64,000 nt of DNA from a virus: positions 1 through 64,000 of IMG/VR virus record IMGVR_UViG_3300008117_000025; one strand, written 5' to 3'. The position numbers were made by a program, and so were the translations under genes. The notes under the pieces were generated by a model. The model worked only from the letters and a program-made list of their open reading frames with translations. It was not told where the DNA came from and did no database searches. Positions 25,889-62,021 of this stretch are shown one piece after another (the stretch's first letter is position 1; the number at the start of each line of letters is the position of its first letter).

Positions 25889-25889
25889 T

Positions 25890-26723: not shown

Positions 26724-26728
26724 TTTAT

Positions 26729-28069: not shown

Positions 28070-28070
28070 C

Positions 28071-31371: not shown

Positions 31372-31375
31372 AACA

Positions 31376-33069: not shown

Positions 33070-33070
33070 A

Positions 33071-44157: not shown

Positions 44158-44162
44158 AACCC

Positions 44163-44190
44163 TTAAATATACTAAATTACTTTGACAAAG
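44163..44190 (-). promoter_or_regulatory. Phage promoter of the recurrent type
   Basis: The minus strand reads CTTTGTCAAAGTAATTTAG followed by TATATTTAAGGGTTATG. TTGTCAAAG is identical to the copies at 1361 and 4176. It drives the DNA polymerase gene. Confidence 0.65.
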
Positions 44191-44198
44191 CCAAAATA

Positions 44199-44567
44199 TT
44201 AAACTTCATCTACTACATTAAAGGATATACCTGAGTTAGCAAATATATTTCTAGACAATTCAAAGATTGTAGTACCGGAGGAAGGACAAGCATCATTTCC
44301 AGATGCCCAATAAAATCCATATTGTGTTGATGTATTATTAGGATCTACTATTCTAACACGAATATTATTTACACTAGTACCTTGAGAAGCTTCTAAAGTA
44401 CAAGTAAAGTTATTAATTAAACTACCTATTAAATTAAATGTACTACCATTATCTACAGATACATAGAATTGTGGATCTATGCCTGGAGGATTTGTTGAGT
44501 CTAGTCGGCCATATAGGCTCACAGTATAGGTTACAGCAGCAGGTTGTATCCATATTTTAAAAGGCAT
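44199..44567 (-). CDS. Probable virion or tail protein, 122 aa
   Basis: A beta-rich protein with YTVSLYGRLDSTNPPGIDP and VNNIRVRIVDPNNTSTQYG, with no signal peptide. The gene is the distal member of the tail-fibre operon. Composition and context suggest a small structural or adhesin-accessory protein. No family is recognised. Confidence 0.55.
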   Translation of the reverse strand: MPFKIWIQPAAVTYTVSLYGRLDSTNPPGIDPQFYVSVDNGSTFNLIGSLINNFTCTLEASQGTSVNNIRVRIVDPNNTSTQYGFYWASGNDACPSSGTTIFELSRNIFANSGISFNVVDEV

Positions 44568-44578
44568 AAAGATATAAT

Positions 44579-45160
44579 TTAAGTATAATCAGGTAAAATT
44601 ACAAAATATAGATATTGTCCTTTATTAGAATCATAAGTATAGTTGTAATTAAAATTTAAATTTAATGGAGTTGATAAAGATTCTGTTATTGTTGTGGCAG
44701 ATCCTGAGCCACTTCCATTATTGCTCCAGGGTTTTCCATAAAAAACATACATTCTCGATACACCGTAATTATTACTCCCAGATATATTAATAGACCATGT
44801 TGTATTTGAAGTACCAGCATCTATAATCAACATTGTTGATGGAATAATAGAAGTATCATAAGTAAAATGGGATTGTAAAGTACCAGTTACTGAAGAGGAA
44901 ATATAGAGTGTACGGTCATACCCATACCAGGCGGACATTGATAGATTCTGTTTACTCATAGTAACAGGATTGCCGGAAAGAGACCATCTAGAACCAGAGG
45001 AAAGATAATTTATAGGTGTATAAACACCAGAATTAGGGTAATAGGTACTAAATTGACTTCCAGCAGCCCATTCACTAAAGGCATAATTAGATAATGAACT
45101 TTGAGACATCTCTGTCCTTACATCATTAAATGATATTTGTCCGCTATTTGGTAATGCCAT
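44579..45160 (-). CDS. Tail-fibre-associated protein, 193 aa
   Basis: The start MALPNSGQISFNDVRTEMSQ is a phrase common at the N-terminus of phage tail and fibre proteins (ALPxSGQISFxDV). Ser/Tyr/Asn-rich beta segments follow, ending FNYNYTYDSNKGQYLYFVI. It overlaps the giant fibre gene by 17 bases. Likely a structural or adhesion component. Confidence 0.7.
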   Translation of the reverse strand: MALPNSGQISFNDVRTEMSQSSLSNYAFSEWAAGSQFSTYYPNSGVYTPINYLSSGSRWSLSGNPVTMSKQNLSMSAWYGYDRTLYISSSVTGTLQSHFTYDTSIIPSTMLIIDAGTSNTTWSINISGSNNYGVSRMYVFYGKPWSNNGSGSGSATTITESLSTPLNLNFNYNYTYDSNKGQYLYFVILPDYT

Positions 45161-48100
45161 TTACCTTCAATTTTAATTCATTAATTTGTGTTTGTTGTTC
45201 CTTAATTGCTTCAACTAACAAACCTACCATTTTAGAATAATCTAACGCTAAATATCCATCTTCTCTTTCTATTACTATCTCAGGTAATACTTCTTGTACT
45301 TCCTGAGCTATCAATCCTATGCTTGGAGTTGATTTGGTTACTTCACCTGCATTATCATTCCACTTCCATTTAACACCATTTAGTTTTAATAGTTTATCTA
45401 AGGCGTTTATAATAGGAGTGACATCATCTTTTAAGCGTTTATCTGAGGAGGAGAAGGCTGTTATGTCACCGGTTGCTGTAATAGCTCCTGTTACTGCTAG
45501 TGTAGACCCATTAAATGTTAAGTTAGTTTCAGCAACAGCAGCATTTGAACTTCCATCAGAAGTTAATACTCTATTATCACTAGCATTTGATATTGTAGTA
45601 AATCCAGTGCCGCTTGAACCGCTTGAACCGCTTGAACCAGGTGAACCAGGAGAACCCGTGTTACCACTAGTGCCGCTTGATCCACTTGAACCAGGTGAAC
45701 CAGGAGAACCCGTGTTACCGCTAGTACCGCTTGAGCCACTTGATCCACTTGAACCAGGTGAACCAGGAGAACCCGTGTTACCGCTAGTACCGCTTGAGCC
45801 ACTTGATCCTCTTGTACCGCTAGTACCACTTGAACCACTAGAACCTGTTTGTCCACTTGTTCCACTAGAACCAGCTGAACCTGCAGAGCCACTAGTACCA
45901 CTTGAACCGCTTGATCCAGCAGTACCGCTTGAGCCTGGTGAGCCAGGAGAACCTGTATTACCACTAGTACCGCTTGAGCCTGGTGAGCCAGGAGCGCCAT
46001 TAGCACCGCTAGTACCACTTGAGCCACTTAAGCCACTAGTACCGCTTGAGCCAGGAGCACCATTAGCACCGCTTGTACCACTTGATCCAGGAGCACCATT
46101 AGCACCGCTTGTACCACTTGAACCACTTGTACCACTAGTACCGCTTGATCCGCTTGAACCGCTAGTACCGCTTGAGCCACTTAAACCACTAGTACCACTT
46201 GAGCCGTTTTGACCACTTGTACCGCTTGAACCGCTTGCACCATTTTGACCACTTGTACCGCTTGAACCATTAACTCCACTAGTACCACTTGAGCCAGCTG
46301 AACCACTAGTACCACTTGAGCCACTTGATCCGCTTGTGCCACTTGAGCCGTTTTGACCTGAAGTACCGCTTGAACCGTTTTGACCTGAAGTACCACTTGA
46401 GCCATTTTGGCCGCTAGTACCGCTAGAGCCAGATGAGCCAGCTGAGCCTGAGGTTCCACTCGATCCGCTAGTACCGCTAGAGCCATTAGCTCCACTAGTA
46501 CCACTAGAACCAGAAGTTCCTGAACTTCCACTTGTTCCTGATGTTCCAGAACTTCCACTTGTTCCTGATGTTCCAGAACTACCAGAGGTGCCACTACTTC
46601 CGTTTTGGCCTGAAGTGCCACTTGAGCCATTCTGACCTGAAGTGCCGCTTGAACCTGATGTTCCAGATGAACCGGGTTGACCAGGAACACCTCCTACATT
46701 TATTTGCCAATCAGTATAAGGTCCACCAGATCCAAAAGTTGTTGTAACATTTATAATTAATTGATTAGTACCTGAAGTATAACTTGTAACAGTTCCTTCC
46801 ATTCTAGTAGCATAATCTGCTGCTCTTGCTGCAATTACAGTTTGGCCATTTGTGTATGCTAAACCAGCTGTAGTTACAGTGAATGTTTTACTTCCAGTTC
46901 CTATTGATTGAGATGTAGTAGAAGTTGTAGCGTATTTGTCTCCGTTCTGACCAGAGGTACCAGCTGAACCTGATGAACCACTAGTTCCTGATGAACCACT
47001 AGTTCCTGATGAACCTGAAGAACCTGAGGTGCCGCTTGAACCGCTTGATCCGCTTGTGCCGCTTGAGCCGTTTTGACCGCTAGTGCCGCTTGAGCCATTT
47101 TGACCTGAAGTACCGCTTGAGCCACTTAAGCCACTAGTACCGCTTGAGCCAGCTGAGCCACTAGTACCGCTTGAGCCAGCTGAGCCACTAGTACCGCTTG
47201 AGCCACTAGAACCACTAGAACCACTAGTACCACTTGAGCCATTTTGGCCTGATGTGCCGCTAGAGCCATTTTGACCTGATGTGCCGCTTGAACCATTGGC
47301 TCCACTAGTACCACTTGAGCCAGCTGAACCGCTAGTACCGCTTGAGCCATTTTGGCCTGATGTGCCGCTAGAGCCATTTTGACCTGATGTACCACTTGAG
47401 CCGTTAGCCCCTGATGTACCGCTTGAACCGCTAGAGCCATTAGCTCCACTAGTACCGCTTGAACCATTTTGACCAGAAGTACCACTAGAGCCTCTTGTGC
47501 CACTTGAACCGCTTGAGCCGCTTGATCCGCTTGTGCCGCTTGAACCGTTCTGGCCTGATGTACCACTTGATCCATTTTGACCACTAGTACCGCTAGAACC
47601 GTTTTGGCCTGATGTGCCACTTGATCCACTCGTACCGCTTGAACCACTTGAGCCGGCTGAGCCGTTGGTACCACTTGAACCACTTGAGCCACTTGTTCCG
47701 GATGAACCATTTTGACCTGAAGTACCGCTTGAGCCATTAGCTCCTGAGGTACCTGATGAGCCGTTTTGGCCGCTTGTGCCGCTTGAGCCGTTTTGGCCGC
47801 TAGTACCGCTTGAACCACTTGTTCCACTAGTACCGCTTGAACCACTTGTTCCACTAGTACCGCTTGAGCCACTTAAGCCACTAGTACCGCTTGAACCACT
47901 AGAACCACTTGAGCCAGATGATCCATTTACTCCACTAGTACCAGATGAACCACTTAAGCCACTAGTACCGCTTGAACCACTTGAGCCGGCTGAACCGCTA
48001 GTACCACTTGAGCCACTTGATCCCCTAGTTCCTGAGGAACCACTTGAGCCAGAAGTGCCACTTGATCCACTTGAGCCACTGCTACCACTTGTACCTGATG

Positions 48101-51100
48101 TACCAAATGATAAACCTGAGGTGCCTGAAGAACCTGTAGAACCAGCTGTACCTGATGAACCAGCTGTACCAGATGATCCTGGGGCTCCTTGGCCTACTAA
48201 TACATTTCCTAATACTCCGTACACGCGTAGGCTATAGACTGCCCAAGTACCAGCAGTAATAGAAGATACTGCTATTGTAACGTTACCACCTGAAGTTAAT
48301 GCTTCAGAATATTTTGCAGGTGCTCTGTATATTGCAGTATCACCATTACCAGAAGCCAAGTGTTCTAACGTAATTGTTTCTTTAACAGATCCACTATATG
48401 ATAATGTAAATACTATTGTTACGTCTTGAGCCGAGGTTGCTGTTAATCCTATCTCAGCTTCAGCTATAATATTGGAATAATTGTTAGAAGGTACAGTGTA
48501 TGTTTTGATATTAGCATTTGTGCCTGTGCCTGTATTAGTTGTTTCATCAGCATATAATAATACAGTTGAACCTGTTAAGTTAACTGTTGTTGCTCCTACA
48601 ATATATGAAGCAGACACTGCATATGATGCTGTGTTTGCAAATGATGCTGTGCCAGATAAAGATCCTGTAAATCCTTGAGTTGAAGTGGTTGAACCACTAA
48701 CAACTAAACTACCTGTTATAGTTGCAGAACCAGTATATGGGAATGAAGCACCTGCATTTAATGCATAAGATGATGTAGCAGCATATGAAGATGTACCTAA
48801 TAGGCTACCTGTAAAGCTATTAGCAATTATAGAACCTGTTATATTAAAGGTGCCACTTACAAAGCTCATACTAACAGAAGCGGTTGCTGCATTTGTGCTA
48901 CCATCTGACAATAATATTCTTCCAATAGCTGGGGTGTTGATTGTTTCAAATCCTACACCGCTTGTGCCACTTGTACCACTTGATCCTCTTGTACCACTTG
49001 AACCTGAAGATCCAGCAGATCCAGATGAGCCGGAGGTACCGCTTGAACCATTAGCACCGCTTGTTCCAGATGATCCAGATGTACCGCTTGATCCGCTAGT
49101 ACCAGTAGAACCACTTGTACCTGTAGAGCCGCTTGTTCCACTTGATCCACTTAAACCGCTTGTACCACTAGAGCCAGTTTGACCACTAGTACCGGATGAA
49201 CCGGTTTGACCACTAGTACCACTTGAACCGCTTGTACCAGATAAACCACTTGTACCTGTAGAGCCGCTTGTTCCACTTGATCCACTTAAACCGCTTGTAC
49301 CACTAGAGCCAGTTTGACCACTAGTACCACTTGAACCGCTTGTACCGCTTGAGCCACTTGAGCCACTAGTACCGCTTGAACCTCTTGTTCCACTAGTACC
49401 ACTAGAACCACTAGTACCACTTGAGCCACTTAATCCACTAGTACCACTAGAACCGCTTATGCCGCTAGAACCACTTGAACCACTTGTTCCGCTTGATCCA
49501 CTAGTACCGCTTGATCCACTTGAACCACCTGTTCCGCTTGATCCGCTTGAGCCACTAGTACCGCTTGATCCGCTAGTACCGCTTGAGCCACTTGAACCAC
49601 TCGTTCCAGATAACCCACTTGTACCTGCTGAACCACTTGATCCGCTAGTGCCGCTTGAGCCACTTGAGCCACTTGTTCCGGATGAGCCAGATGAGCCTGA
49701 AGTGCCAGATGAACCTGAACTACCATTAGCTCCTGAAGTACCAGAGCTACCTGAGCTACCGTCACCACCAGAAGCGCCTGCAAGGTTTACTTCCCAGCTA
49801 GTATATGTTCCTGATCCTATAACTAAATTAGGAGTTCCGTATGTTAATAATCCATTAGATGGATTGTAAGATTCAACAGGAACTTCTTGATAATTAGTAA
49901 GATTATATGCAAGAATTGCTGTTTGAGCAATTGAATATGCTAAATTAATTCCAACAGTTAAACTTCCACTTAGTCCTAATGTTACAGAACTTGTAGATGA
50001 TGTTAAGTATCTATCTCCTGATAAGCCAGCTGTGCCTGAGGAACCAGATGAGCCAGAGCTACCGCTAGTTCCTGAACTACCTGAAGTACCATTAGTACCA
50101 CTTGAGCCGGAGCTACCACTAGTTCCTGAGCTTCCACTTGAGCCTGAGGTGCCGCTTGAGCCATTTTGGCCTGAAGTACCGCTTGAGCCACTTGATCCAG
50201 AAGTACCTGCTGAACCAGATGTACCTGCTGAGCCCGAAGAACCAGTTGAGCCTGATGTACCACTTGAACCACTTGTACCACTTGACCCAGATGTACCGCT
50301 TGAACCGCTTGAACCTGAGGTACCGGTTGAACCAGAAGTACCGGATGAGCCCGAAGAACCAGTTGAGCCTGATGTACCACTTGTACCTGATTCTCCTGAA
50401 GTGCCTGAGGAGCCACTAGAACCTGTTGTACCACTTGAACCTGAAGAGCCTGAAGTGCCTGTTGAACCAGATGTACCTGCTGAGCCTGAAGAGCCAGTTG
50501 TACCAGATGAACCGCTTGTGCCTGATTCTCCTGAAGTACCTGTTGATCCGCTAGTACCACTAGAGCCTGAAGTGCCGCTTGAACCTGTAGTACCACTTGA
50601 GCCGCTAGAGCCACTTAAGCCTGATGTACCACTTGAACCACTTGTACCACTGGTACCGTTTGTACCGCTTGAGCCACTTGTACCTGATTCTCCACTTGTA
50701 CCTGATTCACCACTAGTGCCAGAAGAACCTGCAGTACCTGAAGTGCCTTGTACTAATAATTCCCAGTTAGGATTAGATGTAGGAACAGCACTTCCTGCTG
50801 GTATATCTATAGTTGCTATATATGAAGATTCATTGTAGTAGGTAAGATCATTTATAATATAGTTAGTATAATCATTCCATTCTCCTTTCCATGCAAGTCC
50901 AGTACCTGCTGCACCCGGTATACCTGTTAAGCGAATTGACCAGTTACAACACTCACCTGTTCCTTCAAAACTATATGGTTTAAAATTAAGATTTCCCGTT
51001 GTTGGGTTATAAGATATAACTTCACCTGTTATTACATTACAATTATCATTACAGATTAATTGAATAAAATCACCAGCACCAAATGAAAGATCTGTACTAG

Positions 51101-51179
51101 TAGTTATTGTTAAATCACAATAATTACTAGTTTCACAAGATCCAGAAGAAACACAACAATCATCTATAATTCGGGACAT
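45144..51179 (-). CDS. Giant collagen-like tail fibre with C-terminal S74 chaperone, 2011 aa
   Basis: Domain order: a Cys-rich N-terminus with a beta module (about residues 15-95), then a CBM5/12-like module (AWKGEWNDYTNYIINDLTYY, about 96-147). Gly-X-Y repeats follow at about 148-385, a second beta module at 389-466, and repeats to about 740. A beta-rich adhesin region with TGSL/ASYA repeats spans about 740-996. More repeats, a third beta module at 1416-1500 and further repeats run to about 1860. The end is a peptidase S74 domain (FSSSDKRLKDDVTPIINAL, then GLIAQEVQEVLPE). S74 domains trimerise fibres and cleave themselves off. The triplets are built from Ser, Thr, Ala, Asn and Gln and contain almost no Pro. 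Confidence 0.85.
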   Translation of the reverse strand: MSRIIDDCCVSSGSCETSNYCDLTITTSTDLSFGAGDFIQLICNDNCNVITGEVISYNPTTGNLNFKPYSFEGTGECCNWSIRLTGIPGAAGTGLAWKGEWNDYTNYIINDLTYYNESSYIATIDIPAGSAVPTSNPNWELLVQGTSGTAGSSGTSGESGTSGESGTSGSSGTNGTSGTSGSSGTSGLSGSSGSSGTTGSSGTSGSSGTSGSTGTSGESGTSGSSGTTGSSGSAGTSGSTGTSGSSGSSGTTGSSGSSGTSGESGTSGTSGSTGSSGSSGTSGSTGTSGSSGSSGTSGSSGTSGSSGTSGSTGSSGSAGTSGSAGTSGSSGSSGTSGQNGSSGTSGSSGSSGTSGSSGSSGTNGTSGSSGTSGSSGSSGSSGTAGLSGDRYLTSSTSSVTLGLSGSLTVGINLAYSIAQTAILAYNLTNYQEVPVESYNPSNGLLTYGTPNLVIGSGTYTSWEVNLAGASGGDGSSGSSGTSGANGSSGSSGTSGSSGSSGTSGSSGSSGTSGSSGSAGTSGLSGTSGSSGSSGTSGSSGTSGSSGSSGTGGSSGSSGTSGSSGTSGSSGSSGISGSSGTSGLSGSSGTSGSSGTSGTRGSSGTSGSSGSSGTSGSSGTSGQTGSSGTSGLSGSSGTSGSTGTSGLSGTSGSSGTSGQTGSSGTSGQTGSSGTSGLSGSSGTSGSTGTSGSTGTSGSSGTSGSSGTSGANGSSGTSGSSGSAGSSGSSGTRGSSGTSGTSGVGFETINTPAIGRILLSDGSTNAATASVSMSFVSGTFNITGSIIANSFTGSLLGTSSYAATSSYALNAGASFPYTGSATITGSLVVSGSTTSTQGFTGSLSGTASFANTASYAVSASYIVGATTVNLTGSTVLLYADETTNTGTGTNANIKTYTVPSNNYSNIIAEAEIGLTATSAQDVTIVFTLSYSGSVKETITLEHLASGNGDTAIYRAPAKYSEALTSGGNVTIAVSSITAGTWAVYSLRVYGVLGNVLVGQGAPGSSGTAGSSGTAGSTGSSGTSGLSFGTSGTSGSSGSSGSSGTSGSSGSSGTRGSSGSSGTSGSAGSSGSSGTSGLSGSSGTSGVNGSSGSSGSSGSSGTSGLSGSSGTSGTSGSSGTSGTSGSSGTSGQNGSSGTSGQNGSSGTSGANGSSGTSGQNGSSGTSGSSGSSGTNGSAGSSGSSGTSGSSGTSGQNGSSGTSGQNGSSGTSGQNGSSGTSGSSGSSGSSGTRGSSGTSGQNGSSGTSGANGSSGSSGTSGANGSSGTSGQNGSSGTSGQNGSSGTSGSAGSSGTSGANGSSGTSGQNGSSGTSGQNGSSGTSGSSGSSGSSGTSGSAGSSGTSGSAGSSGTSGLSGSSGTSGQNGSSGTSGQNGSSGTSGSSGSSGTSGSSGSSGTSGSSGTSGSSGSAGTSGQNGDKYATTSTTSQSIGTGSKTFTVTTAGLAYTNGQTVIAARAADYATRMEGTVTSYTSGTNQLIINVTTTFGSGGPYTDWQINVGGVPGQPGSSGTSGSSGTSGQNGSSGTSGQNGSSGTSGSSGTSGTSGSSGTSGTSGSSGTSGSSGTSGANGSSGTSGSSGTSGSAGSSGSSGTSGQNGSSGTSGQNGSSGTSGQNGSSGTSGSSGSSGTSGSAGSSGTSGVNGSSGTSGQNGASGSSGTSGQNGSSGTSGLSGSSGTSGSSGSSGTSGTSGSSGTSGANGAPGSSGTSGANGAPGSSGTSGLSGSSGTSGANGAPGSPGSSGTSGNTGSPGSPGSSGTAGSSGSSGTSGSAGSAGSSGTSGQTGSSGSSGTSGTRGSSGSSGTSGNTGSPGSPGSSGSSGSSGTSGNTGSPGSPGSSGSSGTSGNTGSPGSPGSSGSSGSSGTGFTTISNASDNRVLTSDGSSNAAVAETNLTFNGSTLAVTGAITATGDITAFSSSDKRLKDDVTPIINALDKLLKLNGVKWKWNDNAGEVTKSTPSIGLIAQEVQEVLPEIVIEREDGYLALDYSKMVGLLVEAIKEQQTQINELKLKVNGITK
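45605..50745. repeat. Interrupted GSSGTSG-coding repeat tract (gene 45144)
   Basis: Short 9-18-base units coding Gly-X-Y triplets (GSS, GTS, GQN, GAN, GSA, GLS) are tandemly repeated. Four blocks are separated by unique modules near 46690-46940, 48190-48960 and 49770-50010. Codons vary between copies, so the repeat is conserved more at protein than at DNA level, though many exact local repeats remain. Confidence 0.9.
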
Positions 51180-51206
51180 CTATATTGATTTTTATTTTAC
51201 ATTACT

Positions 51207-51410
51207 TTAAAAAGGTGGAACATCACATAATGTTTTTGATATTATTTCACCACATCCTCCTGAAACTGTATAACAATAGGTACCATCTGAATAGAAATTA
51301 TCTGGTACAGGTGAATTAAAGGAAGAGTCGGTGTATATAAAACTACCAACATTAAGTATTATAGATCTACTATAAAAACATCCATAAATTGGAACAAAAA
51401 TAGGGCCCAT
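51207..51410 (-). CDS. Small Cys-containing structural protein, 67 aa
   Basis: The segment GSFIYTDSSFNSPVPDNFYS then GTYCYTVSGGCG parallels a stretch of the neighbouring 400-residue protein (GCFLYTDSSLTTIADTGTYY then GTNCLVVNDSG). The shared module suggests a small stand-alone copy of a virion domain. Function is unknown. Confidence 0.6.
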   Translation of the reverse strand: MGPIFVPIYGCFYSRSIILNVGSFIYTDSSFNSPVPDNFYSDGTYCYTVSGGCGEIISKTLCDVPPF

Positions 51411-51447
51411 ATTTATATTTTACAATAATTATTTAAAGTTTATATAT

Positions 51448-52650
51448 TTAACATCCACAAGGATTATTCCAAGTTCCACATTGTGAGTTGGGGTAATCAT
51501 TAAAATAATCACTATTTACTATATCTGCGGGTGGTTGAATAGGAGGAAGTATATTTTGTGTTGTTATAGAACCATATCTAACACAATCTGAAAGTGTATA
51601 TAGATATAATTGCCCCTCAGGTTCAAAAGTTGAATTTTCTGTTGTTATTAAACCATACTGTGTAGTTCCACTACAATCAACATATTTAAAAGATCCTGTT
51701 TCAGCTGCATATAATAATATATTTTGGAAACATCCATTAAATGCTTTATATACTATACAAGCTCCTGCACAATCTGGTGTAACTAAAGGACCAACTGCTG
51801 AGTCTCTTCTTGCTAAACAGTGTGCAACTGGAGTACAAGAGCCTAGATCAGTAATTACACCACTATCATTTACAACTAAACAATTAGTACCATCATAATA
51901 AGTACCAGTATCTGCTATTGTTGTTAAAGAAGAGTCTGTGTATAGGAAGCATCCAACTTCTAGATCGCAACAATCACTGTATATAGTAGGTGATAAAGCT
52001 TGAGTTGAATATGTTACTATAACAAGTCCATTTCCACCAACACCACCATTTCTTGTTGAAGAACCTAAATCAGTATTTGCTCCTCCTGATCCACCACCCC
52101 CAAAGCTAGCTCCTGGATTTCCATTATTTCCTGGGGTTACTCCATTTGCTCCTAATCCTCCATAAAAATTTGTTGCTGATCCTCCAACATTATTTACTGC
52201 ATTGCTTCCACTATTAGTAGAACCGGCACCTCCTCCTCCTCCACCAGACCCTGCATCTACTCCATTTCCTCCATTTCCACCTTTAAATATTATATCACCA
52301 ACACACCCTGCTGTACTACCAGAAGCTCCAGTAGCATATGCTGGCGTTGCTCCAGTAGCATTATTGCCATTTATCCCTCCTTTAGCATAAACTACATTAA
52401 TATTATCAAACCAAGAATCTCTATTACCCGCTCCACCTTGACCAACAGTAACTGTATATCCTTGTCCTGGGTTAACAGGATAATTCATTTTTTTAGCATA
52501 TGCACCTCCAGATCCACCACCACCACGACCTCCAAGGCGAGTAGAAAGTCCACCTGATCCCCCAGCTCCCCATGCTTCTATAGTTACATGATTAACATTG
52601 GCTGGTACTGTAAAGGTTCCATTTGTATAAAAAAATTCTTTTTGTCTCAT
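51448..52650 (-). CDS. Glycine-rich tail-fibre / receptor-binding protein, 400 aa
   Basis: The N-terminus has the phage glycine-rich-domain phrase GTFTVPANVNHVTIEAWGAGG, then a Gly-rich region (about residues 30-215) with repeats such as GGGGSGGANTD, typical of polyglycine-sandwich tip adhesins. The C-terminal half is Cys-rich, with modules YTDSSLTT...GTNCLVV, CLARRDSAVGP and GCFQNILLYAAE. It probably binds the host receptor at the fibre tip. Confidence 0.75.
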   Translation of the reverse strand: MRQKEFFYTNGTFTVPANVNHVTIEAWGAGGSGGLSTRLGGRGGGGSGGAYAKKMNYPVNPGQGYTVTVGQGGAGNRDSWFDNINVVYAKGGINGNNATGATPAYATGASGSTAGCVGDIIFKGGNGGNGVDAGSGGGGGGAGSTNSGSNAVNNVGGSATNFYGGLGANGVTPGNNGNPGASFGGGGSGGANTDLGSSTRNGGVGGNGLVIVTYSTQALSPTIYSDCCDLEVGCFLYTDSSLTTIADTGTYYDGTNCLVVNDSGVITDLGSCTPVAHCLARRDSAVGPLVTPDCAGACIVYKAFNGCFQNILLYAAETGSFKYVDCSGTTQYGLITTENSTFEPEGQLYLYTLSDCVRYGSITTQNILPPIQPPADIVNSDYFNDYPNSQCGTWNNPCGC

Positions 52651-52690
52651 ATAAAAACTAATTTATTAATATTTTTAACAACTAATACAA

Positions 52691-55600
52691 TTAATTACAT
52701 CCTTCAACACATCCTCTTGCATAGTTATCTTCTGCTTCACAGCAATCACCTGGTGTTTCTGATGTTGGAGTATATCCTACACAGAATGAACAATATATTG
52801 GGCATTCTTCAAGTGGGAGAGTAATACAGGTAGTACTGGTTCCTGAGAGTTTAACTGAAGTACCACTTGTACCTGAACTACCTGATGTACCAGATGAACC
52901 GGAGGTTCCTGAACTACCACTAGATCCACTTGTACCTGAACTACCTGATGAACCTGAAGTACCTGTAGAGCCTGATGTACCTGTTGAACCAGATGTTCCT
53001 GAACTACCACTTGATCCACTTGATCCTGTTGTACCTGATGAACCTGAAGTGCCAGTTGATCCGCTAGTACCTGATGAACCGCTAGTACCTGATGAACCCG
53101 ATGATCCACCAGAACCACTTGTACCTGCTGAGCCTGCAGATCCACTTGTACCTGTTGAGCCTGAGCTTCCTCCAGTACCTGAACTTCCTGAGCTACCATT
53201 TGCCCCACTTGTTCCTGAACTTCCTGATGTTCCGCTTGAGCCACTAGTACCAGAAGTACCACTTGAGCCTGAATTGCCAGAAGTACCTGATGATCCTCTT
53301 GTGCCGGAGGTTCCACTAGAACCTGAAGTTCCACTAGAGCCTGAAGTGCCGGATGTACCAGAACTACCATCAATTCCTGATGTACCAGATGAACCAGAGG
53401 TGCCATTAGAACCCGAAATGCCGGATGTTCCTGAACTACCATCAATCCCTGATGTTCCTGATGAGCCTGAACTACCTGATGTACCTGAACTACCTGATGT
53501 ACCAGATGAGCCAGATGTTCCAGAGCTACCATTTGTGCCTGAAATACCAGATGTACCTGAACTACCAGATGTACCAGATGAGCCAGATACGCCGGAAGTA
53601 CCAGCGTCTCCTGTTATACCACTAGTACCTGAGGTACCATTTGATGTGCCTGATGTACCTGTTGTGCCTGATGTACCAAATGAATATCCTGAAGACCCAG
53701 CAGTTCCTGAAGTACCAAATGATATACCGGATGTACCTGCTGAACCTGAAGAACCTGTTGTACCTGCTGTACCATTGCCTGAGGTTCCACTTGTACCAGT
53801 TTGACCACTTGTACCGCTTGATCCACGAGTACCACTAGTACCACTTGTACCACTAGTACCATTTGTTCCTGAAATACCTGAAGTACCGCTTGAGCCTGTT
53901 GTACCTGAAGTACCAGTTGTGCCTGAAGTGCCATTAGTACCATCTGCACCTGAGGTTCCAGAAGATCCATTAGTACCATTTATTCCTGAAGTACCATTAG
54001 TACCTGAAATACCAGAAGTACCATTTGAACCACTAACACCTGAAGAGCCAGAAGTACCAAAAGTACCATCAGAGCCAGAAGTGCCAGAAGAACCACTTGA
54101 ACCGTCAACTCCGGAAGAACCAGAACTACCTGATGTACCATGGGTTCCACTTGATCCTGAACTACCTGATGAGCCTGAAGAACCAGCTGACCCAGCTGAT
54201 CCAGCTGTTCCTGATGAGCCTGCAGAACCTGCAGAGCCAGCAGTACCTGCAGAGCCGGATGAACCACTTGATCCAGAGCTTCCTGAAGAACCACTAGAGC
54301 CAGCTTCACCACTTGTTCCTGAACTTCCATCTTCTCCGTCTACTCCTGATAATCCTGAAGAACCAGAACTACCACTAGTACCTGTCTCTCCACTAGTACC
54401 GGAACTTCCTTCAGTTCCTGATGTACCTGAAGTGCCATTTATTCCTGATGAACCTGAAGTGCCATTAGATGTACCTGAGGTACCTGTTGTGCCTGAAGTA
54501 CCGTATGTGTATCCAGAAGAACCAGCTGTGCCGGAGGTACCAAATGATAGACCTGAAGTGCCTGCTGAACCTGATGATCCTGTTTCTCCGCTTGTACCTG
54601 AAGTACCTGTTTCTCCGCTTGTACCTGAAGTACCTGTTTCTCCGCTTGTACCTGAAGTACCAGATGTGCCTGAGGTACCTGTTGTACCACTTGTACCTGC
54701 TGTACCACTTGTACCTGTTTCTCCACTAGTACCAGAGGAACCAGATGTACCAAAAGTACCTGATAAACCTGAAGTACCGCTTGATCCTGTTGTACCTGAA
54801 GTACCAGTTGTACCACTTGTACCTTGTGTTCCACTAGTGCCGCTAGTACCTGTTGTGCCTGATGTACCTGTTGTACCGCTTGTTCCAGCAGTTCCATTAC
54901 CTGAAGTGCCTGATGTACCAGCAGTTCCGTTACCTGAGGTACCACTTGTACCTGCAGTTCCATTACCTGAAGTACCTGAGGTACCTGATGAGCCTGAAGT
55001 ACCTGTTGTACCGCTTGTTCCAGCAGTTCCATTACCTGAAGTGCCTGATGTACCTGTTGTGCCTGATGTGCCTGTTGTGCCTGATGTACCTGTTGTGCCG
55101 CTTGAACCTGAAGTGCCTGATGTACCTGTTGTGCCTGATGTACCTGTTGTGCCTGAAGTGCCAGCAGTTCCGTTACCTGAGGTACCACTTGTACCTGCAG
55201 TTCCATTACCTGAAGTGCCAGAAGTACCTGTTGTACCTGAAGTACCGTTTGATGTACCTGATGTACCTGTTGTACCTGATGTACCGTATGTGTATCCTGA
55301 AGATCCTGCTGTACCCGACGTACCGAATGATATACCTGATGTACCTGCTGAACCTGAAGAACCTGTTGTGCCTGATGTACCACTGCCTGAAGTACCACTT
55401 GTACCTGTTTCTCCACTAGTACCACTTGATCCTCTAGTACCACTAGTACCGCTTGTACCTGCAGTTCCATTACCTGAAGTGCCTGATGAGCCTGATGAGC
55501 CTGTAGTACCAGAAGTACCTGAAGTACCTGTTGTACCGCTTGTGCCTGATGAGCCTGTAGTACCAGAAGTACCTGAAGTGCCTGTTGTACCTGTTGTGCC

Positions 55601-56815
55601 GCTTGTTCCTTGTGTTCCACTGATACCGCTTGTACCTGTTGTGCCTGAAGTACCAGTTGTACCACTTGTGCCTGATGTACCTGTTGTACCAGAAGTACCA
55701 GTTGTTCCTGAAGTACCTGTTGTGCCGCTTGTTCCCGTAGTACCGCTTGTTCCCGTAGTACCGCTAGTACCTGTTGTACCGCTTGTTCCCGTAGTACCGC
55801 TAGTGCCTGATGTGCCTGTTGTGCCTGAAGTGCCTGTTGTACCGCTCGTGCCTGAGGTACCTGTTGTACCGCTAGTACCTGTTGTACCTGATGTGCCGCT
55901 AGTACCTGTTATACCTGATGTACCTGTTGTGCCGCTTGTACCTGAAGTGCCTGATGTGCCACTTATACCGCTTGTTCCACGAGCACCACTAGTACCTGAT
56001 GTTCCTGTTGTACCTGATGTACCTGTTGTGCCACTTGTGCCGGTTGTACCTGATGTGCCTGTTGTGCCGCTTGAACCTGAGGTGCCGGATGTACCTGTTG
56101 TACCAGAAGTGCCTCTTGATCCACTTGAACCTGAACTTCCAGCAGATCCAGATATACCTGATGTGCCAGAAGAACCATCTGAACCTGAAGTACCGCTTGA
56201 GCCTGTTGTACCTGAAGTACCTGAGGTGCCGCTTGTACCAGTAGTACCAGAAGTGCCTGTTGTGCCTGAAGTACCTGTTGTGCCTGCTGTACCACTTGTA
56301 CCTGCTGTACCTGAAGTACCAGCAGCAGAGCGGGCATATTTTGTTAAAATATCAAGAATATTATATATATCAGCATCAGTGAGCCAACCACCTAATGATC
56401 CTAGTCTTGTTATATCTCCAGTAGGATCTATAAATATTCCTTTAACTTCAGCTGGGTAGTTTTCAACTCCTGTATATTCAGTAGCATTTGCTAGTATTTG
56501 AACATTAGTATCTTCTAAAACACAACAAACTTCAGTTTCAGTTTGAAGAGATATAGAAGCAACTCTATATATTTTCCCATATGCTAGATTCCCTCCTTCA
56601 GCATATAGCATTCCAACTTTCACATCACGTCCATCTATTTGACCATCTGTACTACCAGCTGCTTGGTCAGAATATATAGTAAAACAGCATTGAAAAAGAT
56701 ATGATGCTCCATCAAATATACTCCCAGGATCCGAAAACGTTGGGGTTGTTGGGGAACCAGAACCTGGTTTAAGTAGTGCTCTAATTACTAATGAAGAGTT
56801 AGCTGCAGTGGGCAT
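52691..56815 (-). CDS. Collagen-like fibre protein with Cys-rich tail, 1374 aa
   Basis: The unique head (about residues 1-165) is beta-rich with SYLFQCCFTIYSDQAAG. A Gly-X-Y tract of about 1150 residues follows, dominated by GTSGTTGTSG and later GSSGTSG. Three near-identical aromatic cassettes (SFGTSGTAGSSGYTYGTSG type) interrupt it. The tail (about 1325-1374) has nine or so Cys residues (CITLPLEECPIYCSFC, then CCEAED), which could lock trimers by disulfides. No S74 domain is present. Likely a virion fibre or whisker. Confidence 0.8.
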   Translation of the reverse strand: MPTAANSSLVIRALLKPGSGSPTTPTFSDPGSIFDGASYLFQCCFTIYSDQAAGSTDGQIDGRDVKVGMLYAEGGNLAYGKIYRVASISLQTETEVCCVLEDTNVQILANATEYTGVENYPAEVKGIFIDPTGDITRLGSLGGWLTDADIYNILDILTKYARSAAGTSGTAGTSGTAGTTGTSGTTGTSGTTGTSGTSGTSGTTGSSGTSGSDGSSGTSGISGSAGSSGSSGSRGTSGTTGTSGTSGSSGTTGTSGTTGTSGTTGTSGTTGTSGTSGARGTSGISGTSGTSGTSGTTGTSGITGTSGTSGTTGTSGTTGTSGTSGTTGTSGTTGTSGTSGTTGTSGTTGTSGTTGTSGTTGTSGTTGTSGTTGTSGTTGTSGTSGTTGTSGTTGTSGISGTQGTSGTTGTTGTSGTSGTTGSSGTSGTTGTSGTSGTTGSSGSSGTSGNGTAGTSGTSGTRGSSGTSGETGTSGTSGSGTSGTTGSSGSAGTSGISFGTSGTAGSSGYTYGTSGTTGTSGTSNGTSGTTGTSGTSGNGTAGTSGTSGNGTAGTSGTTGTSGTTGTSGTSGSSGTTGTSGTTGTSGTTGTSGTSGNGTAGTSGTTGTSGSSGTSGTSGNGTAGTSGTSGNGTAGTSGTSGNGTAGTSGTTGTSGTTGTSGTSGTQGTSGTTGTSGTTGSSGTSGLSGTFGTSGSSGTSGETGTSGTAGTSGTTGTSGTSGTSGTSGETGTSGTSGETGTSGTSGETGSSGSAGTSGLSFGTSGTAGSSGYTYGTSGTTGTSGTSNGTSGSSGINGTSGTSGTEGSSGTSGETGTSGSSGSSGLSGVDGEDGSSGTSGEAGSSGSSGSSGSSGSSGSAGTAGSAGSAGSSGTAGSAGSAGSSGSSGSSGSSGTHGTSGSSGSSGVDGSSGSSGTSGSDGTFGTSGSSGVSGSNGTSGISGTNGTSGINGTNGSSGTSGADGTNGTSGTTGTSGTTGSSGTSGISGTNGTSGTSGTSGTRGSSGTSGQTGTSGTSGNGTAGTTGSSGSAGTSGISFGTSGTAGSSGYSFGTSGTTGTSGTSNGTSGTSGITGDAGTSGVSGSSGTSGSSGTSGISGTNGSSGTSGSSGTSGSSGTSGSSGSSGTSGIDGSSGTSGISGSNGTSGSSGTSGIDGSSGTSGTSGSSGTSGSSGTSGTRGSSGTSGNSGSSGTSGTSGSSGTSGSSGTSGANGSSGSSGTGGSSGSTGTSGSAGSAGTSGSGGSSGSSGTSGSSGTSGSTGTSGSSGTTGSSGSSGSSGTSGSTGTSGSTGTSGSSGSSGTSGSSGSSGTSGSSGTSGSSGTSGTSVKLSGTSTTCITLPLEECPIYCSFCVGYTPTSETPGDCCEAEDNYARGCVEGCN
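52850..56325. repeat. GTSGTTG/GSSGTSG-coding repeat tract (gene 52691)
   Basis: This is the longest uninterrupted block, about 3.5 kb. The half nearer the gene start is rich in GTT triplets and the other half in GSS, so it expanded in at least two phases. Aromatic cassettes lie near 53640-53760, 54460-54570 and 55245-55350. Confidence 0.9.
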
Positions 56816-56823
56816 ACTTTATT

Positions 56824-59800
56824 TTATATTAGGAAGATTATATAGGCTGTTGTTGTATTTGAAGTAACACTAGTTGCTGAACCAATTCCAGTGATAGTAA
56901 ACGTTGGGTAAGTTCCAGATGAATGATCTTGATTAACAGAAGCTAGTGCATTATTTGTAGTATACCCTGATGACATTGCTGTTCTTAGATTTACCTGGTT
57001 TGGAGATCCTGCTGTACCTATTGAAACAACAGAGCAATAATATATAGGAACTGAACGATTTGATATAGGTCTAGTAGCTGAAATTGATGTTGATGAAGCT
57101 ACACTAAATGACCATCCATTAGCTGTTAAGTCTTCTCCATTAGGACCAACAGCGCTAGCTATTGAATTTACAGCTCCTGCAACTATATTTAAAGTAACAA
57201 CATATTTTCCACCTGCAGATGATGTACCAGAAGTACCAGAAGAACCTGTTCCTCCAGTTTGGCCACTAGTTCCTGAAGTACCATTTGAAGTACCTGAGGT
57301 GCCTGTTGTACCGGAAGTACCATATGATAAACCTGATGAGCCTGCTGTACCTGAAGTACCGAATGATAGGCCTGAAGTACCAGATGAGCCAGTTTCTCCC
57401 GATGTTCCACTAGAGCCTGAGGTACCTGTTGATCCACTTGTTCCACTTGAACCACTTGAGCCATTAACACCACTTGTACCGCTTGAACCGGTTGTACCGC
57501 TTGATCCGCTTGTGCCTGTAGATCCACTAGTACCACTTGAACCGCTTGTTCCGTTTGAACCATTTTGACCAGATGTACCACTTGAACCAGTTGTACCGCT
57601 TGAGCCGCTTGTACCAGTAGAGCCACTTGTTCCACTTGAACCGCTAGTACCATTTGAACCACTTTGGCCAGATGTACCACTAGAGCCAGCTGTACCACTT
57701 GAGCCACTTGTGCCTGTAGAGCCTGATGTTCCGCTTGATCCACTTGATCCGCTTGTACCTGTAGAACCTGATGTGCCGCTTGAACCGCTTGATCCGCTTG
57801 TGCCACTTGATCCGTCTATACCTGAAGTACCACTTGAGCCTGAAGTACCACTAGAGCCTCTTGTGCCGCTTGAACCGCTTGAGCCACTAGTACCGCTTGA
57901 TCCACTAGTACCGCTTGATCCGCTTGTACCACTTGATCCACTTGATCCGCTTGATCCAGAAGTACCACTTGAACCACTTGATCCAGAAGTACCACTTGAA
58001 CCACTTGAACCATCTACTCCGCTAGTACCAGATGAGCCAGATGTACCAGTAGAGCCACTAGTGCCACTAGTTCCAGATGAACCTGAACTACCAGTTTCGC
58101 CACTAGTTCCTGAAGAACCCGAACTACCAGTTTCACCACTTGTACCAGATGAACCTGAAGTGCCAGTTGATCCACTAGTTCCTGAAGAACCCGAACTACC
58201 AGTTTCGCCGCTAGTTCCAGATGAACCATTTGTTCCATTTTCGCCACTTGTACCACTTGAACCACTTGATCCAGTTTCACCACTTGTACCTGATGAACCT
58301 CTTGTACCACTAGTTCCACTTGTACCTGATGAACCTCTTGTACCACTAGTTCCTGAAGAACCGGATGTACCTGAACTACCATCTACTCCACTTGTTCCTG
58401 AAGAGCCGTTTGTTCCTGAAACTCCAGAGGTGCCACTTGAACCTGAAGTACCGCTTGAGCCTGTTGTACCGCTAGTACCTGTTGTACCTGATGTACCGTT
58501 TGATGTACCTGAAGTACCTGTTGTACCTGAAGTACCGTATGAAAAGCCTGATGAACCTGCTGTACCTGATGTACCGAATGATATACCTGAGGTACCTGCG
58601 GAGCCGGATGAGCCGGTTGTTCCTGCTGTACCATCATTACCTGAAGTACCGCTTGAGCCAGTTACTCCACTTGTTCCTGATGAACCTCTTGTACCTGATG
58701 TACCTGAGGTGCCTGATGAGCCTGAAGTGCCGGATGAGCCTGAAGTACCAGATGAGCCGTTTGTTCCAGTTATACCACTTGTTCCAGATGAACCCCGTGT
58801 TCCACTTGAACCGGATGTACCAGATGAGCCTCTTGTACCGCTAGTTCCTGATGTACCAGATGAGCCTCTTGTACCGCTAGTTCCTGATGAACCGGATGTG
58901 CCACTTGAACCAGATGAACCACTAGTACCGGATGATCCTCTAGTACCGGATGAACCGCTTGTACCGGATGACCCTCTAGTACCGGATGTACCACTTGTAC
59001 CGCTTGAACCTGAAGTGCCAGCGCTACCACTAGTACCGGATGAACCTCTTGTACCACTAGTTCCTGATGAACCGGATGTGCCACTTGTTCCTGAAGTGCC
59101 AGATGTACCAACACTTCCGCTTGTTCCAGAAGAACCACTAGTTCCTGAAGAACCGGATGTGCCTGCACTTCCACTTGTACCTGAGCTGCCATTTGTACCT
59201 GATTCTCCAGAAGTACCAGATGATCCATTTGTCCCGGATATACCTGATGTGCCTGATGAGCCGTTGCTTCCAGATACACCTGATGTGCCTGAACTACCAC
59301 TTGTTCCTGAAGATCCGCTAGAACCTGATGTACCACTTGACCCTGAAGAGCCTGATGTACCTGATGAGCCACTAGAACCAGATGATCCTCTAGTGCCAGA
59401 TGAACCGGAAGAACCAGCTGAACCACTAGTACCAGAAGTACCAGCTGAGCCGGAAGTACCAGCGGTTCCAGATGAACCACTTGTGCCAGCAGACCCACTT
59501 GTTCCACTTGAACCTGATGTTCCTGAGGTGCCACCAGTGCCTGATGAACCTGAGGTGCCGCTTGAACCAGAAGAACCATTAGCACCAGAGGTGCCACTAG
59601 AGCCAGCAGTACCACTAGTACCAGAAGTATTAGTGGTAGTGGTTCTATAATATAATTGCTTAGACGTCGTATCGAATACAACGTAATTTGTTAATGCGTT
59701 TTCAGTTAGGGTTGCTTTTACACTTCCTGTAATGTCTACAGAACCTGTCATTTTAAATGACCCACTAACACTTAATAAGTTGCCAATTATAGCTGTGCTT

Positions 59801-60078
59801 CCAGATAGATAACTTGCACTAACTGCTGTTATTGCATTATTAGCCCAGCTTGAAGTACCATATAAAGAGCCAGTTAAATTATTAAGAACAGCACGACCAT
59901 CAACTGTAAAAAATCCAAGTACAGAGGTAGATCCAGTAATATTAATATTACTACCAGACATGTTAGTAAGAAGGTAGACAAAATTACCATCACCTTCAGG
60001 CCATGTTAACTCTGAGCCTTTTATGGCTATAGTGTTTCCCGCGTTGGCCGCAGAACTTATACGCAGTATTAATCCCAT
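56824..60078 (-). CDS. Collagen-like fibre protein with C-terminal beta domain, 1084 aa
   Basis: The head (about residues 1-150) contains FVYLLTNMSGSNINITGSTS and TGSLYGTSSWANNAITAVSA, which match the TGSL/ASYA repeats of the 2011-residue fibre. The Gly-X-Y tract covers about 150-955, with two aromatic cassettes. The last 130 residues form a beta-rich tip domain (GGKYVVTLNIVAGAVNSIAS onward). It is the first gene of the fibre operon. Confidence 0.8.
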   Translation of the reverse strand: MGLILRISSAANAGNTIAIKGSELTWPEGDGNFVYLLTNMSGSNINITGSTSVLGFFTVDGRAVLNNLTGSLYGTSSWANNAITAVSASYLSGSTAIIGNLLSVSGSFKMTGSVDITGSVKATLTENALTNYVVFDTTSKQLYYRTTTTNTSGTSGTAGSSGTSGANGSSGSSGTSGSSGTGGTSGTSGSSGTSGSAGTSGSSGTAGTSGSAGTSGTSGSAGSSGSSGTRGSSGSSGSSGTSGSSGSSGTSGSSGSSGTSGSSGTSGVSGSNGSSGTSGISGTNGSSGTSGESGTNGSSGTSGSAGTSGSSGTSGSSGTSGSVGTSGTSGTSGTSGSSGTSGTRGSSGTSGSAGTSGSSGTSGTSGTRGSSGTSGSSGTRGSSGTSGSSGSSGTSGSSGTSGTRGSSGTSGTSGTRGSSGTSGSSGTRGSSGTSGITGTNGSSGTSGSSGTSGSSGTSGTSGTRGSSGTSGVTGSSGTSGNDGTAGTTGSSGSAGTSGISFGTSGTAGSSGFSYGTSGTTGTSGTSNGTSGTTGTSGTTGSSGTSGSSGTSGVSGTNGSSGTSGVDGSSGTSGSSGTSGTRGSSGTSGTSGTRGSSGTSGETGSSGSSGTSGENGTNGSSGTSGETGSSGSSGTSGSTGTSGSSGTSGETGSSGSSGTSGETGSSGSSGTSGTSGSTGTSGSSGTSGVDGSSGSSGTSGSSGSSGTSGSSGSSGSSGTSGSSGTSGSSGTSGSSGSSGTRGSSGTSGSSGTSGIDGSSGTSGSSGSSGTSGSTGTSGSSGSSGTSGSTGTSGSSGTAGSSGTSGQSGSNGTSGSSGTSGSTGTSGSSGTTGSSGTSGQNGSNGTSGSSGTSGSTGTSGSSGTTGSSGTSGVNGSSGSSGTSGSTGTSGSSGTSGETGSSGTSGLSFGTSGTAGSSGLSYGTSGTTGTSGTSNGTSGTSGQTGGTGSSGTSGTSSAGGKYVVTLNIVAGAVNSIASAVGPNGEDLTANGWSFSVASSTSISATRPISNRSVPIYYCSVVSIGTAGSPNQVNLRTAMSSGYTTNNALASVNQDHSSGTYPTFTITGIGSATSVTSNTTTAYIIFLI
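57215..59630. repeat. GSSGTSG-coding repeat tract (gene 56824)
   Basis: About 2.4 kb of Gly-X-Y triplet repeats with occasional GET, GEN, GVD, GID, GTR and GSN variants. Charged residues (Glu, Asp, Arg) enter at intervals, as in collagens where they stabilise the triple helix. Confidence 0.9.
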
Positions 60079-60095
60079 GAAAATATATATTTACT

Positions 60096-60110
60096 ACATA
60101 TAAATATACA
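60096..60110 (-). promoter_or_regulatory. TGTATATTTATATGT box, possible late promoter
   Basis: The minus strand reads TGTATATTTATATGT, 18-32 bases upstream of the fibre operon start. It is of the AT-only class seen before other structural and late genes. Confidence 0.4.
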
Positions 60111-60129
60111 TCTCTATGGGCAGCTTTAT

Positions 60130-60675: not shown

Positions 60676-60846
60676 TTAAAGTTCTTCTACAATTCCAAGT
60701 ATTTCGGCTCCAATTAACAAACCACCAGCAGCATTAAAATACCATTGATCAGCATACATTAATGCTAATCCAGCTAGTATTCTAACTACTGATTTAATTA
60801 TACTAATTCTAAAATGCCAATTTGTTTTACTTTCCTTTTGTTGCAT
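60676..60846 (-). CDS. Small membrane protein, 56 aa
   Basis: A basic N-terminus (QQKESKTNWHFRISIIKS) is followed by a hydrophobic hairpin: VVRILAGLALMYADQWYFNA and GGLLIGAEILGIVEEL. It overlaps the phosphoribosyltransferase gene by 20 bases. Similar short proteins accompany nucleotide genes in large phages, but the function is unknown. Confidence 0.65.
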   Translation of the reverse strand: MQQKESKTNWHFRISIIKSVVRILAGLALMYADQWYFNAAGGLLIGAEILGIVEEL

Positions 60847-61234
60847 AATCTGCTGTTGTTTGTGAGTCTTTTTGTTCCCATGGATATACTATCCACTTAT
60901 CTCTAGGGGCTAAACTATAATAGAAATCGGGTTTAACGATTGCTGCTTGTTTATAATGGATGGTTGCTGTAGTGAAGAATTGATGGTGTTCCTTGAGTGT
61001 TTCTCCTGAATCACATATATCATCTACAACTAGGATATTTTCATAATCACCGAAGTCATTATGAGAATCAACATAAGGTAATCCCAGCTTATGAGAGAGT
61101 AGCACAGCGGGGATTAATCCTCCCCTAGGTAAACCAGTGATAGCCTCTATAGATTCATCACTTTGTTTAATTTGATGTGCTAGACTCTCAACAGCAGCCT
61201 CAATATCTTTCCAATCTAAATATATCTTATCCAT
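60827..61234 (-). CDS. Purine/xanthine-type phosphoribosyltransferase, 135 aa
   Basis: The segment GLPRGGLIPAVLLSHKLG (about residues 33-50) and the PRPP motif ILVVDDICDSGETL (about 67-80) identify a type I phosphoribosyltransferase. The C-terminal WIVYPWEQ resembles xanthine-guanine enzymes. It would salvage a purine base or act in a modified-base route. It abuts folE (one-base overlap). Confidence 0.85.
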   Translation of the reverse strand: MDKIYLDWKDIEAAVESLAHQIKQSDESIEAITGLPRGGLIPAVLLSHKLGLPYVDSHNDFGDYENILVVDDICDSGETLKEHHQFFTTATIHYKQAAIVKPDFYYSLAPRDKWIVYPWEQKDSQTTADYATKGK

Positions 61235-61869
61235 TATTTAAATTTAGCTCCGTTTACTTCAATTGCATGAAGGAATTCTTCACGAATCAAATTATCCTTT
61301 TCCATAAACACACCACTGAATTTATTTGTAGTCATTACAGATGGATGTTTAATTCCACGATGTGAGCAACAAGTGTGTTTACAAGCAATACTAACTGCTA
61401 CTGATGGGCAATCCATTTTAGTTGCAAGATAATCGTGAATTTGTTGAGTAAGTGATTCTTGCATTTGTGGTCTACGAGAGAACCATTCTACAATACGATT
61501 CAATTTACTTAATCCAATTACATTTTCACCTGGTACATATGCTACAGTTGCATATCCTGTAAATGCAAGATTATGATGTGCACACATACTAACGATAGGA
61601 ATACCTGATTGGATTACTAGTCCATCATATCCATCATCGTTAGGAAATACTGTAATGTTAGGTTCATCTGTGATTGATCCTACAATAAGATCTTTCAGCC
61701 ATGCTTTAGCTACACGACGAGGTGTATCTTCAGTTTGTCTATCTGCTTTATAATCAAATCCTACTGCGTTAAGGAATTCGCCGTATGCTACAGCTGCTTT
61801 TTCAATCATTTGCTCTACTTCTTCTGGTGTGCGAGCTAAACTACCATTTGATTTAGTTAGTAACTTCAT
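61234..61869 (-). CDS. folE: GTP cyclohydrolase I
   Basis: Key motifs are MCAHHNLAFTGYATVAYVPG (zinc-ligand Cys and His), IGLSKLNRIVEWFSRRPQMQE and CKHTCCSHRG. At 211 residues it matches FolE (about 220). It converts GTP to dihydroneopterin triphosphate, the entry step to preQ0 and to folate. With QueE and a QueC-like gene nearby, a 7-deazaguanine role is more likely than folate. Confidence 0.95.
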   Translation of the reverse strand: MKLLTKSNGSLARTPEEVEQMIEKAAVAYGEFLNAVGFDYKADRQTEDTPRRVAKAWLKDLIVGSITDEPNITVFPNDDGYDGLVIQSGIPIVSMCAHHNLAFTGYATVAYVPGENVIGLSKLNRIVEWFSRRPQMQESLTQQIHDYLATKMDCPSVAVSIACKHTCCSHRGIKHPSVMTTNKFSGVFMEKDNLIREEFLHAIEVNGAKFK

Positions 61870-62020: not shown

Positions 62021-62021
62021 G

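Follow-up and report, generated by a model that had tools for sequence, protein, structure and literature searches.

What are three giant, nearly proline-free proteins, built mostly of Gly-X-Y triplets and encoded close together in a viral genome? The genes in question, here called A, B and C, lie in the analysed window, a stretch of 64,000 nucleotides that forms the first 64 kb of the 182,846-b IMG/VR record IMGVR_UViG_3300008117_000025 (G000 among the compared genomes). The comparisons described below make it probable that they encode adhesion fibres that are collagen-like, trimeric and swappable and that belong to a large tailed phage, probably one infecting Bacteroidota.

45144..51179, minus strand: fibre A, 2011 aa, ATG start, 434 triplets, Pfam Collagen and Peptidase_S74
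52691..56815, minus strand: fibre B, 1374 aa, ATG start, 320 triplets, Pfam Collagen
56824..60078, minus strand: fibre C, 1084 aa, ATG start, 249 triplets, Pfam Collagen

The initial annotation had described tracts of Gly-X-Y triplets rich in Ser, Thr, Ala, Asn and Gln and almost without Pro, and this description holds. When counted in strict Gly-X-Y runs of at least six triplets each, the tracts yielded the triplet numbers listed above, with X and Y occupied chiefly by Ser and Thr and next by Gln, Asn and Ala, while Pro occurs 15 times in A and not at all in B or C. The Pfam Collagen family (PF01391; cut-off 27.2) was matched with 566.6 bits by A (E 1.3e-174), 435.1 by B (E 1.5e-133) and 339.5 by C (E 1e-103), and the longest in-register runs of Gly reached 130, 95 and 126 triplets, respectively, compared to maxima of 9, 12 and 9 in shuffled sequences (n = 500). 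Stabilising imino acids or charge in X and Y are usual in collagens, though not strictly defining; all three proteins lack them, with Asp, Glu, Lys and Arg making up approximately 2% (A), 3% (B) and 4% (C) of the X and Y residues. The lengths first given for the three neighbouring genes were correct, but the genes are not all directly adjacent, as a 400-aa gene, X, separates A from B.

Constraint on the Gly-X-Y register

The tracts of the window are highly diverse at the codon level. In A, 69 different DNA sequences encode the 106 copies of the hexapeptide GSSGTS, Gly is encoded by all four of its codons and Ser by all six, and not a single in-register replacement of Gly was found. For these tracts, the synonymous diversity and the lack of Gly substitutions point indirectly to a constraint on the register.

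A codon-level test was carried out on Ser/Thr-type genes from independent viral contigs found by DNA pattern. Between L150 and L154, which are 98.5% identical, synonymous and nonsynonymous changes numbered 42:0 in Gly codons, 25:14 at X and 23:8 at Y. The Gly codons of L155 and L162 showed 105 synonymous changes and one nonsynonymous change, and the more distant pair L118/L121 gave 272:4 for Gly, 171:275 for X and 201:122 for Y. Aligned repeats can be biased towards Gly on Gly, but the 98.5% identical pair is safe from this. Among the Ser/Thr-type pairs, pN/pS was 0.05–0.26 for Ser at Y, compared to 0.2–0.7 for X. Insertions and deletions in the tracts of these three pairs were all multiples of three residues, though some weaker, poorly aligned pairs displayed odd lengths. 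Similarly, in the Gln-type MALS gene (G007, G009 and G017), 18 of 18 tract indels were multiples of three and Gly was changed at 1/162 and 1/166 positions. The codon comparisons indicate that the Gly-X-Y register is under selection and that Y is better kept than X. A constraint of this kind is consistent with a triple helix, or with some other packing in which each third position must be Gly, but not with a floppy linker.

In the surveyed loci L098–L177, recurrent in-register Gly replacements (GASQTS, GVSATS, GTSATS, GLSQTS and others) were seen 152 times in approximately 20,500 triplets, and these are perhaps built-in kinks.

An exchangeable cassette between dcd and polB

The three fibre genes are contained in a cassette that was delimited by comparing the corresponding junction among relatives identified by their polymerase.

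44158..60129, minus strand: cargo cassette, 15.97 kb, between polB and the dCTP deaminase gene (dcd)

In 14 of the 32 relatives' loci that contain both genes, dcd and polB are separated by only 41–45 bp (15 loci when L035, with a truncated dcd match, is included); some of the 32 loci are near-duplicates, and the counts do not represent independent events. The remaining junctions hold 0.8–9.1 kb of unrelated cargo, including tip-like proteins and glycosyltransferases. With the fibre genes in a swappable cassette, the phage would be able to gain, lose or replace whole fibres. The junction as such (window 44158-60129; L009-L052) is a hypervariable cargo hotspot, the empty form of which is a hairpin of approximately 43 bp, and no recombinase was seen there.

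The N-terminal domain of C provides a link to other fibres, as this anchor is common to C and to the collagen-like fibres at the same junction in L013 and L014, the shafts of which are rich in Gln, Thr and Ala while X and Y in that of C are chiefly Ser and Thr. Retention of the anchor and of the Gly-X-Y repeat despite a changed shaft chemistry constitutes the best comparative evidence for a single structural job of the shaft. For tail fibres, a place among the tail genes is usual, though not strictly defining. The cassette does not have it; tail-like genes are found elsewhere in the genome, with a second fibre cluster at 103–117 kb.

Architecture of the fibres and neighbouring proteins

Fibre A begins with a Cys-rich N-terminal beta module, followed by a tract, a second module, a tract, a 258-aa fibre domain, a tract, a third module, a tract and the S74 domain. 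B consists of a unique N-terminal domain, a broken tract and a Cys-rich tail, and C of the anchor domain, a tract and a unique tip. Endings of these kinds had been annotated from the start and were recovered here: A ends in S74, B in the Cys-rich tail and C in a domain of 131 aa that has no recognised family.

50895..51125, minus strand: A, beta module copy 1, N-terminal Cys-rich version, with homologous modules in many Ser/Thr-type fibres
50010..50747, minus strand: A, tract 1, 82 triplets (triplet scan)
49770..50015, minus strand: A, beta module copy 2 (alignment; AlphaFold pLDDT 93.9)
48951..49778, minus strand: A, tract 2, 92 triplets (triplet scan)
48180..48953, minus strand: A, inter-tract fibre domain, 258 aa, up to 74% identical to parts of the genome's 2357-aa collagen-like protein
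46935..48188, minus strand: A, tract 3, 139 triplets with one GLSF break (triplet scan)
46680..46943, minus strand: A, beta module copy 3 (module comparison)
45603..46691, minus strand: A, tract 4, 121 triplets, with nearly all prolines (triplet scan)
45273..45446, minus strand: A, Peptidase_S74, predicted intramolecular chaperone, motif S-D-K-R-L-K (Pfam E 1.5e-17)
52694..52861, minus strand: B, Cys-rich C-terminal tail (from sequence), no relative among the loci compared
59623..60078, minus strand: C, N-terminal anchor domain, 65% (L013) and 62% (L014) identical to the N-termini of collagen-like fibres
56827..57219, minus strand: C, C-terminal tip domain, 131 aa, no recognised family

The S74 domain of A aligns with the long tail fibre distal subunit 6f45 (E 1.5e-7) and with 8jov (E 1e-5), with the conserved Ser and downstream Lys present; B and C have no S74 domain. 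Beta module copy 2 matches public phage proteins named 'Collagen triple helix repeat' (best E 1.2e-10) and its fold is predicted with confidence, though no solved structure matched with E below 0.001. Close relatives in viral contigs were found neither for the tip of C nor for the N-terminus of B, the latter having one weak match among the fetched loci (L185, 28% identity). The PHROG matches of the fibres were mostly to 'tail fiber protein' and 'collagen like minor tail'.

In the tracts of the window, the triplet rule is seldom broken, and where it is, the breaks are of recurring kinds (GISF, GLSF, GYTY, GFSY, GTSN and GNGTA). A 34-residue block with three breaks, GISFGTSGTAGSSGYTYGTSGTTGTSGTSNGTSG, is present in five copies in B and C and is absent from the locus of every other virus fetched.

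55235..55336, minus strand: block copy 1, in B
54452..54553, minus strand: block copy 2, in B
53627..53728, minus strand: block copy 3, in B
58486..58587, minus strand: block copy 4, in C
57271..57372, minus strand: block copy 5, in C

On the plus strand, window 53919-56459 contains an 846-aa antisense ORF of VP(E/L)VP repeats that can mislead gene callers; like the other long ORFs antisense to the tracts, it results from the way in which codons are used there.

Three further proteins are encoded in the cassette.

51448..52650, minus strand: X, 400 aa, Gly-rich (Gly_rich_2) and Cys-rich, candidate tip adhesin or assembly factor (PF21722, E 1e-14)
44579..45160, minus strand: T193, small protein, possible tip protein, 40% identical to a 190-aa protein directly downstream of the L014 collagen gene
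44199..44567, minus strand: U122, small protein on the polB side of the cassette, no relative found in Pfam, PHROG or the relatives' loci

X matches phrog_863 'tail fiber assembly' (E 5.5e-13), and its PF21722 match makes it a candidate gp38-type Gly-rich adhesin, for which a polyglycine-II sandwich would be expected; its single-sequence fold failed (pLDDT 36), and the structure search yielded no solved homolog.

Fibre model and alternative explanations

Each fibre would be fixed to the virion by its N-terminal domain, with the very long Gly-X-Y shaft serving as a rod-like spacer and the C-terminal domain as an assembly or receptor-binding part. In A, the task of the S74 domain would be to fold the trimer and set its register, after which it would release itself by self-cleavage. 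With 0.286 nm for each residue, the triplets of A would add up to approximately 370 nm, which is more than the length of the virion, and the small beta modules and short aromatic interruptions may act as joints or side knobs. The collagen-like nature of the fibres is well supported by the invariance of Gly, the whole-triplet indels, the S74 domain and the anchor common with the relatives' fibres. The sequence features, the constraint on the register in related tracts, the exchange of the cassette and the common anchor come directly from the data; the triple helix, the trimer, presence in the virion and receptor binding are what we infer for A, B and C. Regarding the host, the nearest relative of the phage-encoded GroEL (window 37869-39479) is that of Flavobacterium phage immuto (57% identity) and that of polB is from Microcystis phage Mel-JY01 (36% identity); a Bacteroidota host is likely. 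Some points weigh against this model. On the host-guest scale, Thr at X and Ser at Y contribute little to the stability of a triple helix, and the mean score on that scale is 25–26 in the tracts of the window, compared to 30–36 in Gln-type relatives. Furthermore, the constraint test draws on other contigs, as none of the available sequences is an ortholog of A, B or C with a tract of their type.

How could such a shaft be stable? Charge pairs, invoked in the initial annotation, are ruled out as a general stabiliser by the 2–4% of charged residues in X and Y, and Pro is likewise excluded. Glycosylation, suggested at the same time, is possible. The triple helix might become stable only after phage enzymes have put sugars on Ser and Thr, above all on Ser in Y, with the phage supplying its own sugar-nucleotide pathway and glycosyltransferases. 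The strong conservation of Ser in Y would suit this, two glycosylation islands are present in the genome (window 19995-34531 and 89–98 kb, the latter beside the second fibre cluster), and both Thr glycosylation as a collagen stabiliser and the glycosylated BclA have been described (PMC3368898, PMC8968730). However, a tie to the type of tract was not observed: glycosyltransferase family 2 (GT2) domains were found in 14 of 24 contigs with Ser/Thr tracts (32 matches) and in 12 of 17 with Gln-type tracts (22 matches), relatives without any collagen tract have 6 and 4 of them, and the islands may instead serve DNA, other virion proteins or host surface glycans. Since GT2 is equally frequent with Gln-type tracts and in tract-less relatives, there is no specific link, and dependence on glycosylation, although kept as a rival, is doubtful.

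A different fold that has Gly in each third position, for instance polyproline or polyglycine II helices packed in a bundle, is unlikely. The register rule and the asymmetry between X and Y would suit any Gly-X-Y polyproline-II packing, the tract composition is poor for triple helices and the Gly-rich protein X is encoded in the same cassette, but turn-free runs of 95–130 triplets (997 in G015) ill suit a folded-back bundle, and relatives carry classical GAQ/GDK/GPQ tracts on the same anchor and with the same S74 domain. The composition is also like that of engineered Gly-Ser linkers, and internal repeats are longer than in codon-shuffled controls, which indicates repeat expansion; local duplication has helped lengthen the tracts. 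A flexible, unstructured low-complexity spacer grown by slippage is nevertheless mostly rejected and very improbable in light of the near-absolute codon-level conservation of Gly, the whole-triplet indels and the lack of in-register Gly substitutions in the window. Least credible of all is an assembly or repeat artefact, a possibility raised in the initial annotation. The record is a metagenome viral contig with many tandem repeats in the tracts; however, exact repeats in 45144-60078 are no longer than 85 bp, and with none of at least 100 bp ordinary reads can span them. Codons are moreover varied, the frames stay open over 6 kb and similar genes occur in many independent contigs. On the basis of the repeat lengths, an artefact was rejected.

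Sugar, oxygenase and possible DNA modification genes

The sugar island at 19995-34531 encodes GDP-mannose dehydratase (GMD), GDP-fucose synthase-like and dTDP-glucose dehydratase-like proteins, glycosyltransferases of families GT2, GT10, GT11 and GT1, RfbH (448.8 bits; NCBIfam cut-off 423), a split E1-alpha/beta-like TPP enzyme and a TylF methyltransferase. This gene content suggests a pathway by which the phage makes fucose and a dideoxy sugar.

Five tandem 2OG-Fe(II) oxygenase genes lie beside the second tail-fibre cluster (G000 98765-101875; L084:14765-17875). Within the polymerase group, such genes are confined to members that have large collagen clusters: besides the five here, one or two are present near the clusters in G007, G009, G015 and G017, and none in G002, G003, G018 and G020; outside this group they are rare with both tract types. 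Their tie to large collagen clusters is only a lead, as the group is small, related and viewed post hoc.

Window 60827-63172 and G000 63547-64446 contain genes for GTP cyclohydrolase I, a QueE-like radical SAM protein (below cut-off) and a QueC-like protein (by eye), for which 7-deazaguanine DNA modification is a possible role.

Relation to known systems and distribution

Collagen-like phage proteins have been characterised before. The fibre proteins of Escherichia coli O157 prophages (EPcl) form trimers with a triple helix and have tracts with 22% charged residues (PMC3368898), and mass spectrometry of free Cellulophaga phage virions detected phi18:1 gp52, the annotation of which is that of a tail fibre with collagen repeats (PMC13288928). 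EPclA/B, phi18:1 gp52, phi17:1 gp52 and PHROG 1806/5073/6320 resemble the fibres of the window in having an N-terminal phage domain, a Gly-X-Y shaft, a C-terminal domain and a Pfam Collagen match; they are tail genes, and the window fibres are likened to them in this respect too. In contrast to the tracts of EPclA/B and phi17:1 gp52, which use Pro, Gln and charged residues, the shafts described here are almost only Gly, Ser and Thr and are several times longer. As the tract of phi17:1 is of the GEQGIQ type, this phage was ruled out as a Ser/Thr-type isolate.

Tail fibres 6f45 and 8jov share with A a C-terminal S74 domain with the S-D-x-R-x-K motif; to our knowledge, their shafts are not collagen-like. 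Scl and BclA form a triple helix without hydroxyproline, as is predicted for the window fibres, but Scl has many charged and polar residues and BclA carries glycans, whereas the window tracts are 2–4% charged. In bacterial collagens, Pro is the commonest residue at X and Thr at Y (PMC8968730).

G015, G007, G009, G017, L013 and L014 belong to the same phage group by polymerase and carry clusters of collagen-like genes, with tracts of the GAQ/GDQ/GDK/GTQ type except in G015; such genes lie at the dcd/polB junction only in L013 and L014. Of 20 related records, 7 gave collagen matches, and most of these 7 are among the longest. Outside the window, at 108–117 kb, the genome itself encodes two further collagen-like proteins of the Ser/Thr type (571 and 2357 aa), beside a fibre-like gene with DUF5122 repeats. 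In G015, a Ser/Thr ORF of 3469 aa (108098-118504; L095:8098-18504) comprises 1045 Gly-Ser/Thr-Ser triplets, 997 of them uninterrupted, without Pro.

A DNA pattern scan returned at least 120 IMG/VR stretches with Ser/Thr tracts, and 95 Ser/Thr-rich ORFs were found among the 80 loci listed. These ORFs, many of which are cut by the ends of the loci, have up to 952 triplets (median 131). The public 735-kb uncultured phage LR756501 shares neighbouring giant Ser/Thr ORFs (2816, 2373 and 1665 aa) and the beta module of A, but it is of another lineage, unannotated and has occasional Glu or Asp in X or Y. Among bacteria, the Ser/Thr pattern had many matches in high-GC genomes. A literature text search for the GTSG/GSSG motif together with phage gave no relevant paper, and other literature searches gave nothing closer. 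Long tracts of this kind in one operon had at first seemed striking, which is only partly right, since such genes are carried by relatives (some with at least five collagen-like genes, or the 3469-aa one), environmental viral contigs, where Ser/Thr tracts are common, and the public 735-kb phage. The Ser/Thr shaft is a widespread variant of the collagen-like phage fibre; the class is not new, though it is little described in the literature searched.

Significance

What makes collagen stable is held to be proline, hydroxyproline or charge. The tracts described here run to 100–1000 triplets without any of these, and yet in many phages they evolve within the strict register of collagen. Tentatively, and with less than even confidence, we suggest that they form a proline-free, charge-free class of collagen in which Ser in Y could be the working residue, through phage-made O-glycans or an undescribed hydration network, so that free-living phages would bear stable shafts several hundred nanometres long. 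With these tracts, nature offers a means of testing whether triple helices can form from Gly-Ser/Thr repeats on their own or once sugars are added. Such fibres bear on the reach of a phage from its virion to the receptor, and the dcd/polB cassette shows that they are exchanged as whole units.

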